The notes under the pieces are model-generated. The model saw only the letters and a program-made list of their open reading frames with translations, did no database searches and had not been told where the DNA came from. The position numbers and the translations under genes are program-made. A stretch of 64,000 nucleotides of DNA from Natronoglycomyces albus (GTDB lineage Bacteria; Actinomycetota; Actinomycetes; Mycobacteriales; Micromonosporaceae), in the NCBI RefSeq assembly GCF_016925535.1, contig NZ_CP070496.1, forward strand, positions 3,038,001 to 3,102,000. Reading direction: 5' to 3'. This document shows positions 18,741-25,947 of the stretch, piece by piece; within the stretch, counting starts at the first letter, position 1, and each line of letters opens with the position of its first letter.

Positions 18741-20831
18741 CTAGCCGACGCCCATCTCCTGGGGCAACGACAGGGAGTGCACCAGGGTTAGGCGCGACAC
18801 CGCGCGGGTCACGGCCACATACAACAGGCGCAAACCAATACGTTCGACCGCAGCGATATGCGCGGGTTCCACAACCACCACATGATCGAACTCCAAGCCC
18901 TTAGCCACCGAGGCGGGAATAATCTCCACACGCTGCGTCTGTGCCAGCGTCGGACCCAACGCCTCGATCAGCGCGGGGACATCCGCATCGTGGGCGATGA
19001 CGCCCACCAGTCCTTCTTCGGCCAGCGCCTGGGTGATGGCTTGTTTGGCTCCCGTTAGCGGGTTTGGCGCGTGCACGTGGTCTAGTTTGCCGTCTCGGCG
19101 GATGGACTTCGCGGGTGCGACGTCGACGTCTAGGTGCGGCAGCATGTTGTTGGCCAATTCCACGATGGCCTCTGGTACGCGGTAGCCGATGGTCAGTTCG
19201 CACAGCTCGGCTTCGGGTTTGCCCAGGTGGCCGAGTAGTTCTTTCCAGCTGTGCGCCGCCCATGGAGTTGTGCCTTGGGCGAGGTCGCCGAGGACGGTGA
19301 TTGACCCGTGGGCGCTGCGGCGGGCGATGGCGCGGGCCTGCATTGGCGAGAGGTCTTGGGCTTCGTCGATGACGAGGTGTCCTGACAGGTTCGACCAGGT
19401 CAGGCAGGATTCGAGCTCGTCGAGGAGGACGATATCGGCTGCTGTGAGTTTGAGCGACCGGCCTGGCATGGCCAAGTGGTCTTGTTCGCTGGTGGTGAGT
19501 AGTCCTTCGCAGCATTGGGCGCGAAAGTCGCAGTCGGTGTAGAGGCGCCGTAGGACGTCTTTGGCTTTGAGGCGGGGCCATATGGCGTCGAGGAAGCCTT
19601 TGACGACGGGGTTACGGCCGATTTTGCTTTCCCATTTGCGGTCGGGTGACTGTCCGGTGCGTAGTTCGGCTTGGCGTCGGATGCCCGAGATGATGCCCTG
19701 TTTGAGGAAGTCGAGTCCGGCTAGGTAGGTCTGGTGCTCGTTGCCCGCGTCGGTGGCGAGGTCTGAGAGGAATTGGTATCCGAGTCGCCAGCGCCAACCT
19801 TCGTCGGAGATGACCATGCCTTCGGGTTCTTGGCCGATTTTTTCCAGTGCTGTGGGGACGGTGCTGACGTGGGACCAAACGGCGCGGCGGCAGATTTCGG
19901 CCATGCGCTCGTTGTGTTTGATGTATGCGGCCTCGGGTGTGTCGGTGTGTTTGGCGGCTTGGGTTGACAGCAGGGTGTCGATGGTGAGTTGGCGTACTGA
20001 TGCTTCGCCGAGAGTGGGGAGGACTTGGGAGATGTAGCGCAGGAAGTTTTCGTTGGGGCCGATGATGAGGAGGCCGTTTTTGGCTAGTTGTTCTCGGTGG
20101 GTGTAGAGCAGCCAGGCCGCGCGGTGTAGGCCGACGGCGGTTTTTCCGGTGCCGGGTGCGCCTTGGACGCATAGGGACGTGGAGAGGGCGCGGCGGATGA
20201 GTTCGTCTTGTTCGGGTTGGATGGTGGCGACGATGTCGCGCATGGGGCCGGTTCGGGGGCGTTCGATTTCGGTGGCGAGGATGTCGGAGGTGGCGTCGAT
20301 TCCGGCGGTGAGGTCTTCGTCTTCGAAGCCGGTGATGGTGCCGTTGCCGAATCCGAATCGGCGGCGTTTGAGTACGTCTTGGCGGTTGTGGACGGAGGCG
20401 CGGTAGTAGCGTTCGGCGACGCGGGCCCGCCAGTCGAGAACGAGGGGGTGGTAGGACTCGTCGCGGATGTGGCGGCGTCCGATGTGGTAGTCCTCGTCGG
20501 GGTTGGTTGGTTCTTCCCCCATCCACAGGCGTCCGAAGAATAGGGGGATGTCGGGTCGGTGGCGGAGGTCGGCCAGACGTTGGGCGCGGTGTTTTCCTAG
20601 CGCGAAGGCGACGGTGTCGTCTGAGGTGATGTCGGAGATGGCGAGGTTTTTGCTGCCTTCGGCGATTTCTTCGCTGGCGAGAGCGGTGAGGTGGTCGGTG
20701 GCCTCGTACATGTCGGCCATGGCGGCGGTGGCGCGTTCGAGGTGGGACCGTTCGGCGGCGAGTTCGTGTTCTAGGTCGGGCGCTGGTGACGGTTCGGTTG
20801 TGGATACAGGTGTGGACCCGGTTGAAGACAT
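18741..20831 (-). CDS. HelD-type superfamily 1 helicase-like ATPase
   Basis: A 696-residue UvrD/Rep-like ATPase. The ATG at 20831 is chosen because it follows AGGACA and begins a typical Ser/Thr/Pro-rich tail. A frame opening at 20927 has no site. The order is a helical N-terminal arm rich in Glu and Ala (about residues 20-100), Walker A GAPGTGKT, Walker B VIDEAQDLS, then helicase motifs KGLEFDHVVVVEP and LLYVAVTRA near the C terminus. Proteins of this family (HelD) bind RNA polymerase and free stalled complexes, and some protect against rifampicin. That role is inferred from family resemblance. The gene lies downstream of the MFS gene with a 210-base gap, so it is probably a separate unit. 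Confidence 0.85.
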   Translation of the reverse strand: MSSTGSTPVSTTEPSPAPDLEHELAAERSHLERATAAMADMYEATDHLTALASEEIAEGSKNLAISDITSDDTVAFALGKHRAQRLADLRHRPDIPLFFGRLWMGEEPTNPDEDYHIGRRHIRDESYHPLVLDWRARVAERYYRASVHNRQDVLKRRRFGFGNGTITGFEDEDLTAGIDATSDILATEIERPRTGPMRDIVATIQPEQDELIRRALSTSLCVQGAPGTGKTAVGLHRAAWLLYTHREQLAKNGLLIIGPNENFLRYISQVLPTLGEASVRQLTIDTLLSTQAAKHTDTPEAAYIKHNERMAEICRRAVWSHVSTVPTALEKIGQEPEGMVISDEGWRWRLGYQFLSDLATDAGNEHQTYLAGLDFLKQGIISGIRRQAELRTGQSPDRKWESKIGRNPVVKGFLDAIWPRLKAKDVLRRLYTDCDFRAQCCEGLLTTSEQDHLAMPGRSLKLTAADIVLLDELESCLTWSNLSGHLVIDEAQDLSPMQARAIARRSAHGSITVLGDLAQGTTPWAAHSWKELLGHLGKPEAELCELTIGYRVPEAIVELANNMLPHLDVDVAPAKSIRRDGKLDHVHAPNPLTGAKQAITQALAEEGLVGVIAHDADVPALIEALGPTLAQTQRVEIIPASVAKGLEFDHVVVVEPAHIAAVERIGLRLLYVAVTRAVSRLTLVHSLSLPQEMGVG

Positions 20832-21041
20832 GGTGGATTTGTCCTGACTAGAGCAGTGATTCTGACACGGCTCCACCGACCCCAGAATTGCTCGCGCGAC
20901 TTTGGTCGTGCCGGTATGAGTGGGCATTTCGCGAGATAGCGGGTTCGGCTCGGTGACCAGCGATCCAACTTAGTCGACAGTTATAGCGGTCGTCAAATCC
21001 TTTTTGGGATAGCGAGGGTTGGGATTGAGGTGGCGGTCGGT

Positions 21042-22367
21042 TTACTCAGGGGTGTTCGCGGTGGCGAATTCCTTTTGACGTCGTGCGATCTCGGAGCCAA
21101 CTGTTCGCAGTTTGTGGCGGCACCAGATCCCGGAGAGGATGAGTCCGACTGCGGCGGCCATGAAGATCGCGTCGATGCGTTGCACGTTCATGCCCCACCA
21201 TGTCAGGTTGAGGCCGGCGAGGATGGTTCCGGCGGCTGTGGTGCTGATGGCGATGCTCAGCAGGCCGGCTATGCGCACGGTGAGGCTGAATAGCGAGGTG
21301 ACTCGCCCTAGTTTTTGGCTGGGTACGAGTCGCACCATCATGGGGAAGGCGATCACGTTGAAGATCCCCATCGCGAAACCAAACCCGCCGTTGATCACTA
21401 GTGCGGTGGCCAGGTCGGGTGTCCGTGACAGGGCTAGCAGTAGCGCTCCGGCCGTTATCAATGCCAGGTAGAGCAGGGCGGGTGCTCGTTCGGTATCGGC
21501 TAGCCTGCTGCCGAGCAAGGACCCGGCGATGGAGCCGCCTCCGAATATCGCCACCATGATCCCGTACCAGTAGGCGGAGGAGTTTAGGTTTTCGAGGACG
21601 AAGAAGATTTGTAGTGTTCCCACCATGCTCATTGCGGCGGTGCCGATGGTTCCGGCCACGAATATGTCGCGTACGAAGCGGTCGCGGGTCACGCTGTGCC
21701 AGCCGTCGCGAAATTCGATCCCGAATGATGGCGGTGCGGAGTCGACGGGCTGGGGTTTTTCTTCCCAGCCGGAGGTTTTGCGGGCCGCGATAAGCATGAG
21801 GAAGGAGAATACGAATGACATGGCGTTGATGAGGAACGCGGCGGCCACTCCGGCTACGGCCATGACTGCGGCCGCCAAACTTGGTCCGGCCATCTGGGCG
21901 ATGTTGCCTTGGGTGTGCAGGTAGCCGGTGGCTCGCCCCAGTTTGTCGTCGGGGACGGTGTGCCGGATGGTGACAATTCGGGACGGCATGAGGAACTGTC
22001 CGGCGCCCGCGGTCACCATCGCCACCACGCAGATGAGCCCTATTAGCAGCCACATTGGTGTCGCCTCGGCCCATTGCCACAGGATGATGGCGGTGGCTGC
22101 CATGAGGCAGGCCATGATCGCGTCGACGGCCATCATCGTGCGCCATTTGTTCCACCGTTCGGCCAACACTCCCGCTATGGGGGCGACCACGATAGACACG
22201 GCGACCGACAGGATCGATATGAGGCCAATGACCATGGGGGCTTGGGTCATTCCGGCCAGCAGAACTCCACCGATCCAGATCCGCAGTGCGTTGGAGTTGA
22301 GCTGGTCGCCGGTGACGCTGAGTAGCCCACCGGCGAACATACGCCGGTAGGTGGCGTTTATGAGCAC
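21042..22367 (-). CDS. MFS transporter, EntS-like, probable exporter of the RiPP locus
   Basis: A 441-residue integral membrane protein of the major facilitator superfamily (MFS_3/EntS-like), with about 12 hydrophobic segments. The cytoplasmic loop LAERWNKWR after the second or third helix resembles MFS motif A. The GTG start at 22367 overlaps the maturase stop by ten bases, so translation is probably coupled. EntS-like members export siderophores and other small molecules, so export of the matured peptide is the simplest inferred role here; self-protection by efflux is also possible. No peptidase domain is fused, so leader removal would need another enzyme. Confidence 0.85.
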   Translation of the reverse strand: MLINATYRRMFAGGLLSVTGDQLNSNALRIWIGGVLLAGMTQAPMVIGLISILSVAVSIVVAPIAGVLAERWNKWRTMMAVDAIMACLMAATAIILWQWAEATPMWLLIGLICVVAMVTAGAGQFLMPSRIVTIRHTVPDDKLGRATGYLHTQGNIAQMAGPSLAAAVMAVAGVAAAFLINAMSFVFSFLMLIAARKTSGWEEKPQPVDSAPPSFGIEFRDGWHSVTRDRFVRDIFVAGTIGTAAMSMVGTLQIFFVLENLNSSAYWYGIMVAIFGGGSIAGSLLGSRLADTERAPALLYLALITAGALLLALSRTPDLATALVINGGFGFAMGIFNVIAFPMMVRLVPSQKLGRVTSLFSLTVRIAGLLSIAISTTAAGTILAGLNLTWWGMNVQRIDAIFMAAAVGLILSGIWCRHKLRTVGSEIARRQKEFATANTPE

Positions 22368-23701
22368 ACTTGCAGCCCGTTCATCTGGGCGATCAGGTCA
22401 AATCGCTCCTGCACGTTGAACTTGTAGGCGGGGCATGGTGGGTTTCCTTCGTCCCACTGTTTCGGGCAGGCCCCTCCACATACGGGCAGCATTTTGCAGG
22501 TGGCGCACCAGGTCTTGCCACTTTCGACTGTTTCGGTCCAGTCGTCGTAGGGTCCGACGGGTCGCACTGTCAGTGGTAGTAGTTGGACCTTGCCCAGTGA
22601 GTCGGCCATCTCATGCTTGGGCACGAGCGGATGTTCGGTGCAGGAGAAGACGTTTCCTGAGCTGGAGATGACTTCGGAGCGCAGTGCCGTCGCCGAGCAC
22701 ACGGTGCCGACGATGCTTTCGGGCAGGATCGACACGTGTAGTCCGTGGTCGATCATTCGCTCGTACCAGTCCAGTTGCAGCTTGGAGAATTCGGAGCGTT
22801 CCACTTCGATCGCGGAGACATCGTTGCCCCACGAGTAGACCGGGACGAGGTTGAAGTCCACTTGGTCTTGGAAGAACTCGTGTTCGGCCATGAGGTCGAT
22901 GTATTCATTGACCCATTCGCGGTTATTGACATCCACGTTGGTGCGCAGGCGGATGTGGAAGCAGCCGAGGTCGTCGTCTGCTAGGACCTGTTTCAGTACC
23001 GAGATGATGTGATCGAACGACCCTCCGCCTTTCTTGAGGGGGCGGTGGGTGTCGTGAATGCGGGCCGGTCCGTCCAGGGTGATTTCCAGGTGGGAGACCT
23101 GGCAATCCCGGATCAGTTCGCGGGCCTTGGCGTGTGTCAGCAAGCTGCCGTTGGTGACCATGGTGGCCTTGTAGCCTTTGCCGAGCCTTTCGCATTCGGC
23201 TATGAATTGGCGGCTGAGGTCCACCACGACGGGGTATCCGGCCATTGGTTCGCCGCCGAACCAGGAGATGTTCACCTTTTCGGTGGCTTCGTCGTTGATT
23301 CCGGCGAGTACTCGTTTGGCCACCGCGTCACGATGGCTGTCGGTGAGTTTGCCGGACTTGTGCAGCTGTCCGCAGTATGAGCAGCCCATATTGCAATAGC
23401 TGCTCGGTAGGAGAACGTAGTTGCGGAGGGCGAGGCTGCGGTTGGAGCGTCGTTGCCGGTTGAGCACGAAGTCGAGCTCATTGACCTCGGCGTCAACCAC
23501 CGCTTGAATCTCTCTCAAGTCGCTCAGGTGCTCTTGGGCGATGGCCTCAACGTGGCCATTTTCCAACTGCGCCACGACGTCGCTGGGGAAACAGGCGATG
23601 GTACCGGTCCGAGTCGCATAGATCATCCGGTAGTCGATGTCATCGTCGGCGCGATATTGAGATCCACTGGTGTGCAGATAGTCGCTAACTTTTAGTTTCA
23701 T
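22358..23701 (-). CDS. Radical SAM/SPASM peptide maturase
   Basis: A 447-residue radical S-adenosylmethionine enzyme predicted to modify the small Cys-rich peptide encoded just upstream. The [4Fe-4S] motif C-x3-C-x2-C is at residues 103-110 (CNMGCSYC). The GGEP motif follows (SWFGGEP). The C-terminal SPASM region has a full Cys set for auxiliary clusters, including GNVFSC, CATCKMLPVCGGAC and a later PPC. The N-terminal 90 residues are typical of peptide-modifying members and may bind the leader. SPASM enzymes of this type install thioether (sactipeptide, ranthipeptide) or carbon-carbon links. Which chemistry applies cannot be read from sequence alone. The ATG at 23701 lies 13 bases after GAGGAG, a longer gap than usual. 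Confidence 0.9.
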   Translation of the reverse strand: MKLKVSDYLHTSGSQYRADDDIDYRMIYATRTGTIACFPSDVVAQLENGHVEAIAQEHLSDLREIQAVVDAEVNELDFVLNRQRRSNRSLALRNYVLLPSSYCNMGCSYCGQLHKSGKLTDSHRDAVAKRVLAGINDEATEKVNISWFGGEPMAGYPVVVDLSRQFIAECERLGKGYKATMVTNGSLLTHAKARELIRDCQVSHLEITLDGPARIHDTHRPLKKGGGSFDHIISVLKQVLADDDLGCFHIRLRTNVDVNNREWVNEYIDLMAEHEFFQDQVDFNLVPVYSWGNDVSAIEVERSEFSKLQLDWYERMIDHGLHVSILPESIVGTVCSATALRSEVISSSGNVFSCTEHPLVPKHEMADSLGKVQLLPLTVRPVGPYDDWTETVESGKTWCATCKMLPVCGGACPKQWDEGNPPCPAYKFNVQERFDLIAQMNGLQVCS

Positions 23702-23729
23702 GAAAAATCAGACACTCCTCGCAGAGTAA

Positions 23730-23830
23730 GAGGCTTATGCAAAAGTGGGGTTCAAGGTAGCCGGGAACGAAGTGTCCGCCGAGTAAATGGGCCGACGCGA
23801 GCGAAGATGACTTCTATTGCATATGCCTTT
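23730..23830. repeat. Palindromic repeat element, copy B
   Basis: About 100 bp starting AGGCTTATGCAAAAG and ending TTCTATTGCATATGCCT, with TTCAAGG and GGCCGACGCGAGCG inside. It aligns with copies A and C. It lies directly upstream of the maturase gene, within the presumed transcript. Confidence 0.6.
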
Positions 23831-23834
23831 ATGC

Positions 23835-23932
23835 GGGTTATGCAATAGCGCGCGTTCAAGGCCGTACCAGGCGGTGCTTACACAGGAAAACGAGCCGACG
23901 AAAGCGGCGAAAATGCCTTTTGCGTGATCCTC
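23835..23932. repeat. Palindromic repeat element, copy C
   Basis: About 98 bp starting GGTTATGCAATAGCGCGCG and ending GCCTTTTGCGTGATCC, with TTCAAGGCC and GAGCCGACGAAAGCGG inside. It is arranged head to tail with copy B, four bases apart. Confidence 0.6.
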
Positions 23933-24043
23933 TATGAGAGTTGAGCCGGGGCAAATTGTATGTCATGGGTCGGCAGTTGCCATTTGTCAGTAGAGTGCAA
24001 AAATACTACTGCCGTGTTCGCTCTACGAAAGGGCGGCTGGAGA

Positions 24044-24077
24044 GCGACCCGGCTCATCTGTTCGACGGCCGAGTCGC
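24044..24077 (-). terminator. Attenuator-like hairpin after the RiPP precursor
   Basis: Stem GCGACCCGGC (24044-24053) with GCCGAGTCGC (24068-24077), ten pairs including one G-U, starting nine bases after the precursor stop. No T-run follows. In RiPP operons such hairpins often let the precursor be made in excess over the enzyme. Confidence 0.5.
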
Positions 24078-24085
24078 TGGGTCAA

Positions 24086-24184
24086 CTATTCGACCTGGCA
24101 GGAGCAGTTGCCGCCGTGGCAACCGCAGTTAACGCCACGGTTGCGGTTCTCGGGGTTAGTATTGGCGGCTTTCATCTTCAACAT
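24086..24184 (-). CDS. Cys-rich RiPP precursor peptide (candidate)
   Basis: A 32-codon frame starting at the ATG at 24184 with a strong site, GAGGAG, seven bases upstream. The leader-like N-terminal half is Lys-, Asn- and Arg-rich (MLKMKAANTNPENRNRG). The C-terminal half VNCGCHGGNCSCQVE holds four cysteines in two N-C-x-C units separated by HGG. A radical SAM/SPASM maturase and an MFS exporter follow on the same strand, and a hairpin lies just after the stop. This is the layout of sactipeptide/ranthipeptide-type loci. The peptide does not match any precursor class I can name. The alternative is a tiny metal-binding peptide, but the maturase makes a RiPP much more likely. Confidence 0.8.
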   Translation of the reverse strand: MLKMKAANTNPENRNRGVNCGCHGGNCSCQVE

Positions 24185-24297
24185 GATTATCTCCTCGAAG
24201 GTTGATTCACATCCCATGGCGGGTTCCATGGCATGTAAGTCAGGAGACTATAGTCCGGACGCACTCTTATCGCATATGTAACGCATAGCTTTCAGAT

Positions 24298-24318
24298 TGA
24301 AAATGATACCCATTAAGA
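24298..24318 (-). promoter_or_regulatory. Zur/Fur-like half site upstream of the RiPP precursor
   Basis: The plus strand reads TGAAAATGATACCCATTAAG. The left ten bases match the actinobacterial Zur-type half site TGAAAATGAT, while the right half is poor. It lies about 115 bases upstream of the precursor start. The match is suggestive only. Confidence 0.25.
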
Positions 24319-24510
24319 AATCTCCACATTAGCGGAGATTCACGGTACCAAAGTGACAGGGCGAGATCTCCATTCGCCGCAATTCACTCGCTTCATCGCA
24401 TTCACTACTTCGGTGAATTTGCTCCCCAAAGGCGCTCTATTCACCGTTGAAAAAGGACCATTCGCAGGGCAGTTTTAGAGCCAAGAGGGCTACTTTTACA
24501 GCGAGGCTTA

Positions 24511-24672
24511 GAGCTCCTATCAGGTTTCTCTTCCTACTGCGGTGGAGTGATGTCGCGCCTGGCCGCGTTGTCGGCCCTTGCCCATACCCGCTGGGTATGA
24601 ACAAGGGCCTCCGCCTCCCCACGCACTGACAGCACACCATCCTCGCCACGGAAACAAACCTGATAGGAGCTC
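24511..24672. repeat. 162-bp element with 17-bp perfect inverted ends
   Basis: GAGCTCCTATCAGGTTT (24511-24527) is the exact reverse complement of 24656-24672. Inside lies a second hairpin (CCCTTGCCCATACCC with GGGTATGAACAAGGG, two mismatches). It could be a structured RNA or a small MITE. No open frame inside is convincing. Confidence 0.5.
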
Positions 24673-24767
24673 TACGGGCCCCGCAAGGCCACTGGCCTCG
24701 ACGGCCCCACCGGTGAGTGGGCCACCGCGCGATCGAACCGCGATGCGGTCTCCATGAATCCACATAG

Positions 24768-24837
24768 CAAGAGATCCCCCGGTAACGCTCTGACTGGGTT
24801 GGAAAACCCGGTTAGAGCGCCTACGGAGGACCTCTTG
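24768..24837 (-). terminator. Long hairpin downstream of the opp operon
   Basis: A 15-bp inner stem with two G-U pairs (24786-24800 with 24805-24819) is extended by an imperfect outer stem (CAAGAGATCC with GGACCTCTTG). It lies about 65 bases past the oppF stop. Confidence 0.6.
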
Positions 24838-24903
24838 TCAATCAATGTCCCTTCGCGCACGGGGGCCCAGCTCACCCTGGCAAGGAATCGGCCTAAAGAG
24901 CCG

Positions 24904-25947
24904 CTAGACAATTTCCGCTTTGTCCTGCTGGATTTCCAATGTGCCCGAGGCAATGTCCTCGGCGAAGTGGCACGCCACTTTGTGAGGCGCGGCTTGTCCC
25001 GACTGGGCCTTATAGGACCGCAGCAAGGGCACTTCGGTCCTACACCGATCCTGCGCCCACGGACAGCGCGTGTGGAATCGGCAGCCCGATGGCGGATTAG
25101 CTGGTGATGGCAGGTCCCCTTGCAACAAGATCCGCTCGCGTCGATCTTCCACGTCCGGGTCCGGCACCGGGACAGCCGACATCAGTGAGCGAGTGTAGGG
25201 GTGCGCGGGCTCCGCGTAGAGCATGTCGGAGTCGGCTTCTTCGACCACCTGCCCCAGATACATGACGCCCACTTTGTCGGCGATGTGACGCACGACCGCC
25301 AGGTCGTGAGCGATGACGATATAGGCCACGCCGGTCTCCTCCTGAATCTCCTCCAGAAGGTTCAGGACCTGAGCCTGAATCGACACGTCCAGGGCACTGA
25401 CGGGCTCGTCGCAGATGATCAGGTCGGGGCGCAGCACGGTTGCCCGCGCGATCCCTATGCGCTGCCGCTGACCGCCGGAAAACTCGTGCGGGTAGCGAGT
25501 CAACGACGTGGAGGGCAGACCCACCGCGTCCAAGACCCCGTGCAGCATTTTGCGACGGGCGACCTTGCCTTTGGCCAGGCCATGGGCGATGAGCCCCTCG
25601 GAGAGAATTTCCTCGACACACTGACGCGGGTCGAGCGAACCCATCGGGTCCTGGAACACCATTTGTAGGCGCTGTCGCGACTTACGCATGTCCTCGGTCG
25701 ATAGGGCCGCCAGATCAACGCCGTCGAAGTACACATGGCCCGAGGTGATCTCGTTGAGTCGCAAAATAGCTCGCCCCAGAGTGGACTTGCCGCATCCGGA
25801 CTCGCCCACCAGCCCATAGGTCTGGCCGGGTTCCACTTCCAATGTCACCCCGTCGACCGCGCGGACGTGGCCGATCGTGCGCTCGATGAGAATGCCCTTT
25901 TTGATGGGAAAATGGACCTTGAGGTCCTCTACCTTCAGCAAGCTCAC
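24904..25947 (-). CDS. oppF: Oligopeptide ABC transporter ATPase (OppF/DppF type)
   Basis: The cytoplasmic ATPase of a peptide importer, 347 residues. Walker A is GESGCGKS, the signature is FSGGQRQRIGIARA, and Walker B is IICDEPVSALD. The C-terminal oligo_HPY region contains PAHPYTRSL and the Cys-rich CRFHTRCPWAQDRC...HKVACHF, which in this family can hold an Fe-S cluster. The GTG start overlaps the preceding ATPase stop as GTGA. It is the last gene of the five-gene operon and is followed by a long hairpin. Confidence 0.93.
   Translation of the reverse strand: MSLLKVEDLKVHFPIKKGILIERTIGHVRAVDGVTLEVEPGQTYGLVGESGCGKSTLGRAILRLNEITSGHVYFDGVDLAALSTEDMRKSRQRLQMVFQDPMGSLDPRQCVEEILSEGLIAHGLAKGKVARRKMLHGVLDAVGLPSTSLTRYPHEFSGGQRQRIGIARATVLRPDLIICDEPVSALDVSIQAQVLNLLEEIQEETGVAYIVIAHDLAVVRHIADKVGVMYLGQVVEEADSDMLYAEPAHPYTRSLMSAVPVPDPDVEDRRERILLQGDLPSPANPPSGCRFHTRCPWAQDRCRTEVPLLRSYKAQSGQAAPHKVACHFAEDIASGTLEIQQDKAEIV

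Follow-up and report, generated by a model that had tools for sequence, protein, structure and literature searches.

A candidate minimal ranthipeptide-type operon with an Asn-x-x-Cys precursor peptide in Natronoglycomyces albus

The window, i.e., the analyzed stretch of 64,000 nucleotides from the 4.0 Mb genome of Natronoglycomyces albus, contains a locus that we read, with a probability of roughly 0.6, as a minimal ranthipeptide-type RiPP operon. As is characteristic of ranthipeptide loci, a short Cys-containing precursor is encoded beside a radical SAM/SPASM maturase. The core of the precursor contains two Asn-x-x-Cys units, the core motif by which streptococcal NxxC peptides are recognized. 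This motif appears to connect the precursor with a ranthipeptide type already described and predicts how the peptide is modified. The features on which this reading is based are as follows.

24203..24242, no strand: inverted repeat just upstream of the precursor ribosome site, 17-nt arms, 82% complementary, 6-nt spacer
24191..24196, minus: precursor ribosome-binding site GAGGAG (sequence, scored)
24086..24184, minus: 32-aa precursor peptide MLKMKAANTNPENRNRGVNCGCHGGNCSCQVE (frame and ribosome site, leader start, homologous frames in six loci); leader approximately residues 1-16, core approximately residues 17-32
24119..24130, minus: first of the two Asn-x-x-Cys units, N19-C-G-C22, with N19 as predicted thioether acceptor and C22 as predicted donor (motif also conserved in related loci)
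24098..24109, minus: the other Asn-x-x-Cys unit, N26-C-S-C29, where a second ring is predicted (sequence, motif)
24043..24078, minus: RNA hairpin 7 nt past the precursor stop, possible attenuator (fold z -4.3, inverted repeat I3)
22358..23701, minus: radical SAM/SPASM peptide maturase, 447 aa (Pfam, alignment, AlphaFold2, best PDB match CteB; NCBIfam below cut-off)
23432..23701, minus: maturase N-terminal domain, approximately residues 1-90 (model secondary structure, full-length structural match to CteB)
23372..23395, minus: radical SAM cluster motif C103-x3-C107-x2-C110 (invariant in 36 homologs)
22433..22699, minus: SPASM cluster ligands C335, C354, C399, C402, C408, C412, C423 (alignment)
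21042..22367, minus: MFS exporter of 441 aa with a GTG start (scores above the gathering threshold for Pfam MFS_1 and MFS_3)

The precursor frame and its nearest relatives

The precursor frame (24184-24086, minus strand) spans 99 nt, and GAGGAG lies six bases 5' of its ATG. An in-frame extension to 47 aa was rejected because the upstream start lacks a ribosome site. The leader begins with M-L-K-M. The window has 2,125 frames that run from start to stop with a length of 18-60 aa, and only the precursor starts with M-[ILV]-[KN]-[LM]. Of 954 distinct window frames, it is one of four that have N-x-x-C no more than ten residues from the stop. NCBIfam and Pfam contain no family that matches the peptide, and when the 32-mer alone was used as query in a protein search, only noise was returned outside its own genome. 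An earlier note on this DNA had likewise been unable to assign the precursor to a named class. This still holds at the family level, while the note had overlooked the Asn-x-x-Cys motif, which points to the ranthipeptide type.

The nearest maturases, with 51-54% identity, come from two further genera of the family to which N. albus belongs (L031, L032) and four Streptomyces genomes (L071-L074). Each of the six loci has a frame of 24-31 aa with a ribosome site, located 102-232 nt upstream of the maturase gene. The leaders of these precursors start with M-[I/L]-[K/N]-[L/M], and all six carry a C-terminal N-x-x-C; the sequences are MIKLATSNNATPAATGRGNGVCGAGCATQPN, MINLVTSTWNSDDFEMANDVKNVGCGSLC, MIKLTTSNSSSYVGEKNGVCGNGC (with H in place of N in L072), MIKLSTATPATGVMPLPPEKNGVCGNGC (GTG start) and MLKMSTATPTVGPIPPKQPSRNGVCGAGC. 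Several related precursors end with the Cys itself. Four Cys, two NxxC units and an extra tail Q-V-E set the window core apart from those of the relatives. A profile HMM built from the precursors of the six relatives did not rank the window precursor, whose tie to them thus consists of two short motifs and gene order.

Each of the six relatives has an MFS gene 3' of the maturase gene, with its start 12-89 nt beyond where the maturase match ends. In the window its GTG start at 22367 overlaps the end of the maturase gene by 10 bases. Only precursor, maturase and MFS gene are common to all seven loci compared; a shared peptidase, immunity gene or regulator was found in none of them. The position of the MFS gene suggests that its product exports the peptide. 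These results agree with the earlier note, which had described a 32-residue precursor with a strong ribosome site, an exporter overlapping the maturase by ten bases and a locus devoid of peptidase, immunity gene and regulator. They also lend support to its RiPP reading, which, according to the note, would be refuted if related genomes did not keep the small frame next to the maturase: such a frame is conserved in the six relatives.

The window locus is flanked by genes for an oligopeptide ABC transporter and a HelR-like protein. The latter, encoded at 18741-20927 directly after the MFS gene, resembles HelR/HelD-type RNA polymerase recycling helicases (300 bits, curated cut-off 1100) and was not found in the related loci. 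A gene for a BTAD-domain (SARP-type) regulator is located just upstream of the precursor in L031 (L031:6656-7510) and only there.

The maturase

Three radical SAM and seven SPASM cysteines are present in the maturase, and the complete cluster motifs announced in the earlier note are therefore in place. All ten are invariant in 36 homologs except for C412 and C423, each of which is at least 90% conserved. The AlphaFold2 model is confident (pLDDT 92.5). The best PDB match, both by sequence and by fold, is the ranthipeptide maturase CteB (SCIFF/thermocellin maturase, PDB 5wgg, 5why), which is matched over its full length including the N-terminal domain, albeit at 16% identity once the structures are aligned. 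The substrate of CteB, in which Cys is linked to Thr, is a 45-residue peptide with six Cys, whereas the window precursor has four Cys in 32 residues. In the model, the N-terminal approximately 90 residues show the order of strands and helices expected of a RiPP recognition element, and this domain is probably the leader-binding site. The Cys/Ser oxidase anSME is also among the best structural matches.

Comparison of the maturase with curated families, as proposed in the earlier note, yielded several matches, yet every cut-off was missed by a wide margin. The best NCBIfam model, TIGR04463 (rSAM_vs_C_rich, radical SAM/SPASM RiPP maturases), gave 192.3 bits against a cut-off of 525. It is matched by all 36 homologs and is not named in the literature searched. 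An annotated member of this family on a Methylomagnum plasmid differs from the window locus in residing beside a long precursor with Cys at every fifth position. The model for PapB, the freyrasin maturase, which acts on Cys and Asp side chains, matched significantly (NF047865, 81.9 bits, cut-off 340), followed by the models for QhpD (77 bits) and SCIFF/CteB (TIGR03974, 62.3 bits, cut-off 425). Sactisynthase models scored lower than these three, with 54 bits for RumMC and 39 bits for GggB.

The Asn-x-x-Cys motif in related loci

The Asn-x-x-Cys hypothesis was drawn from the first nine precursors and then examined in the remaining loci by a scripted scan for short frames with a ribosome site, located at most 450 nt upstream of the maturase gene and carrying N-x-x-C in their last residues. 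Such a frame is present in 25 of 34 loci, compared with 0.23 +/- 0.42 in shuffled DNA. None was detected on the other strand or downstream of the maturase gene, and N-x-x-C ranked first among 120 residue-spacing patterns. Two loci were added by hand, the window, where the precursor lies beyond 450 nt, and L063, where the ribosome site did not match. In L033 and L058, D-G-G-C takes the place of N-x-x-C. Two plasmid homologs provided further examples, L-N-G-N-C in Streptomyces sp. NBC_01281 and F-N-S-G-C-G in Rhizobium etli, and with the latter the motif extends beyond the Actinomycetota. Over 36 related loci, the tally is 29 with NxxC, two with DxxC and five without a candidate; related genomes are counted here as separate loci, and the tree places the motif in at least five lineages rather than in 31 independent ones. 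The five homologs without a precursor (L034, L057, L065, L067, L069) form a clade of their own. Within 1.2 kb upstream of these maturase genes no small Cys frame is recognizable, and the only small frames that they share lie inside the maturase gene.

The named genome collection was scanned once, with a single-sequence query, and the family is thus under-sampled. In 395 genomes drawn evenly from the class, no further relative was present at E<=1e-60, so the family is patchy. Phage records contained distant maturases only.

The two plasmid loci deserve a separate remark. In the Streptomyces plasmid (L086:4573-9358), an unannotated 33-aa frame precedes the related maturase gene, which is followed by genes for a methyltransferase, a SagB/ThcOx-type dehydrogenase and an MFS protein, a more elaborate version of the system. 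In the R. etli plasmid (L087:4671-9973), a gene for a 77-aa hypothetical protein with the motif comes before the maturase gene, and genes annotated as JmjC-domain and acetyltransferase proteins come after it.

Precursor types

The precursors fall into types that track the maturase tree, type I being that of the window. Type II precursors (23-24 aa) start with M-Y-D-D-A-L-V-T-T-T... and end with N-[VI]-x-C, and their loci also contain a divergent MFS gene and a gene for a small, apparently HTH-type regulator. In one pair of type II loci, precursor DNA is 83% identical compared with 58-63% in the flanks, and codon changes within the precursor are silent in six cases and lead to replacements in four. 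Coding constraint on the precursor is thus visible in this pair. The type I and II precursors of relatives that were tested matched no NCBIfam family. Type III precursors are about 60 aa long and end with V-N-G-G-C-x-E-x or nearly so, while those of type IV have a hydrophobic, signal-peptide-like start and N-F-x-C plus a short tail at the end. Signal-peptide-like precursors occur in L035, L046, L049, L050, L051, L053, L054, L064 and L070 with N-F-[AG]-C (N-S-G-C in L070); such an N-terminus is odd for a peptide that needs modification in the cytosol. Type V (L059, L075) comprises longer, aroma-sacti-like precursors related to StsA. That of L059 passes the domain cut-off of NF045560, set at 30 bits, and ends with N-N-N-L-C; the window precursor, unlike these, does not match the aroma-sacti domain model. 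Both type V loci encode a second large protein beside the maturase (L059:9963-12104 and L075), the start of which seems to resemble a RiPP-associated cobalamin radical SAM methyltransferase. Across at least five unlike leader types, Asn-x-x-Cys is the only common feature.

Predicted chemistry and alternative explanations

We propose that the maturase would bind the short N-terminal segment M-[I/L]-K-[L/M]..., probably via its own N-terminal domain, and abstract a hydrogen from the Asn of N-x-x-C. The thiol of Cys(+3) would be joined to this Asn, most likely at Cbeta as with NxxcB, and each ring formed would correspond to a loss of 2 Da. Because the window core has two NxxC units, up to two rings may form; Cys20 and Cys27 may be joined in a disulfide or keep free thiols. 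The MFS protein would export the product, and the leader would be removed by cell proteases encoded elsewhere.

The same pairing of Asn and Cys(+3) is also expected for a sactipeptide, in which the sulfur would be attached to the alpha carbon of Asn. Cbeta and Calpha bonds look alike at the level of sequence, type V precursors match an NCBIfam domain whose name implies alpha thioethers, and Asn16 is a Calpha acceptor in ruminococcin C1 (PMC12395415). We nevertheless regard a sactipeptide as unlikely. NxxcB from Streptococcus orisratti, the sole characterized N-x-x-C enzyme found in the literature searched, makes Cbeta bonds and links Cys23 to Cbeta of Asn20 (i to i+3; PMC8326336, PMC13361665). 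Asp, which replaces Asn in two related precursors, fits this linkage because it is the Cbeta acceptor in freyrasin (PMC11002830), and QhpD-like enzymes have been argued to be non-alpha (PMC11002830). Taken together, the NxxcB precedent, the Asp acceptors and the higher scores with PapB, QhpD and SCIFF models than with sactisynthase models lead us to favor a Cbeta over a Calpha bond with moderate confidence.

A radical SAM modification other than a thioether, such as epimerization, Cys oxidation or a change at a C-terminal Cys, with the Asn kept for binding or cleavage, is improbable. SPASM enzymes catalyze many reactions, and the structural likeness to anSME as well as the terminal position of Cys in several precursors could be understood along these lines. 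The constant spacing of Asn and Cys despite unlike leaders, however, points to a bond between the two, and the best match, CteB, is a thioether-forming enzyme. A cyclophane was dropped from consideration because the core lacks aromatic residues save for one His. Very improbable, finally, is that the 32-aa frame is not the substrate, being either a chance frame or unrelated to a maturase that acts on a peptide encoded elsewhere. It is separated from the maturase gene by 384 nt with a hairpin in between, it is missed by the HMM of the relatives, and five homologs have no recognizable precursor. Against this stand the similar frames at 102-232 nt in the six nearest relatives and the presence of both conserved motifs in the window frame, for which the probability by chance is small.

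The ranthipeptide reading of the window locus may be extended, tentatively and with rather less than even confidence, to the whole branch. An undescribed SPASM branch in Actinomycetota and at least one Rhizobium would link Asn (or Asp) to Cys(+3) by a thioether close to the C-terminus of the precursor; leaders would have changed freely, to at least five unlike types, some of them signal-peptide-like, and the four-residue target alone would have been kept. The window would then represent the smallest operon type, in a double-ring form. The recurrence of Asn-x-x-Cys beside related enzymes predicts the chemistry of an otherwise anonymous maturase branch down to the two side chains that are joined. 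Moreover, precursors of 23-32 aa escape gene finders, and they can be located by NxxC beside a maturase gene. An enzyme family that takes unlike leaders with a fixed core motif would, if this holds, lend itself well to studies of leader recognition and might serve as a tool for peptide stapling at N-x-x-C.

Comparison with streptococcal NxxC systems

The closest described counterpart is NxxcA/NxxcB from S. orisratti and S. porci (Caruso et al. 2019), and the NxxC literature found concerns streptococci. As described in PMC8326336 and PMC13361665, Asn is located three residues before Cys in the core and a radical SAM/SPASM maturase is encoded beside a short precursor; the likeness of the motif may be convergent. 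In contrast to the streptococcal systems, the window locus is actinobacterial and has a very short leader, two NxxC units and an MFS exporter, and Rgg/SHP quorum-sensing genes are absent from the neighboring genes checked.

RNA and DNA elements near the precursor

Promoter and terminator scans remained at chance level, and Rfam gave no match in 23600-24950. The inverted repeat at 24203..24242 is possibly an operator or a leader hairpin. Past the precursor stop, each of the ten precursor-maturase gaps of types I and II that were folded has a long stem in an equivalent position, with unlike sequences; z-scores for single gaps are modest (-0.4 to -2.9, compared with Markov shuffles), and conservation of the hairpin is thus suggestive only. 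Such stems are known to set the ratio of peptide to enzyme in RiPP operons. The hairpin behind the window precursor possibly has the same role and would probably allow the peptide to be made in excess over the enzyme.
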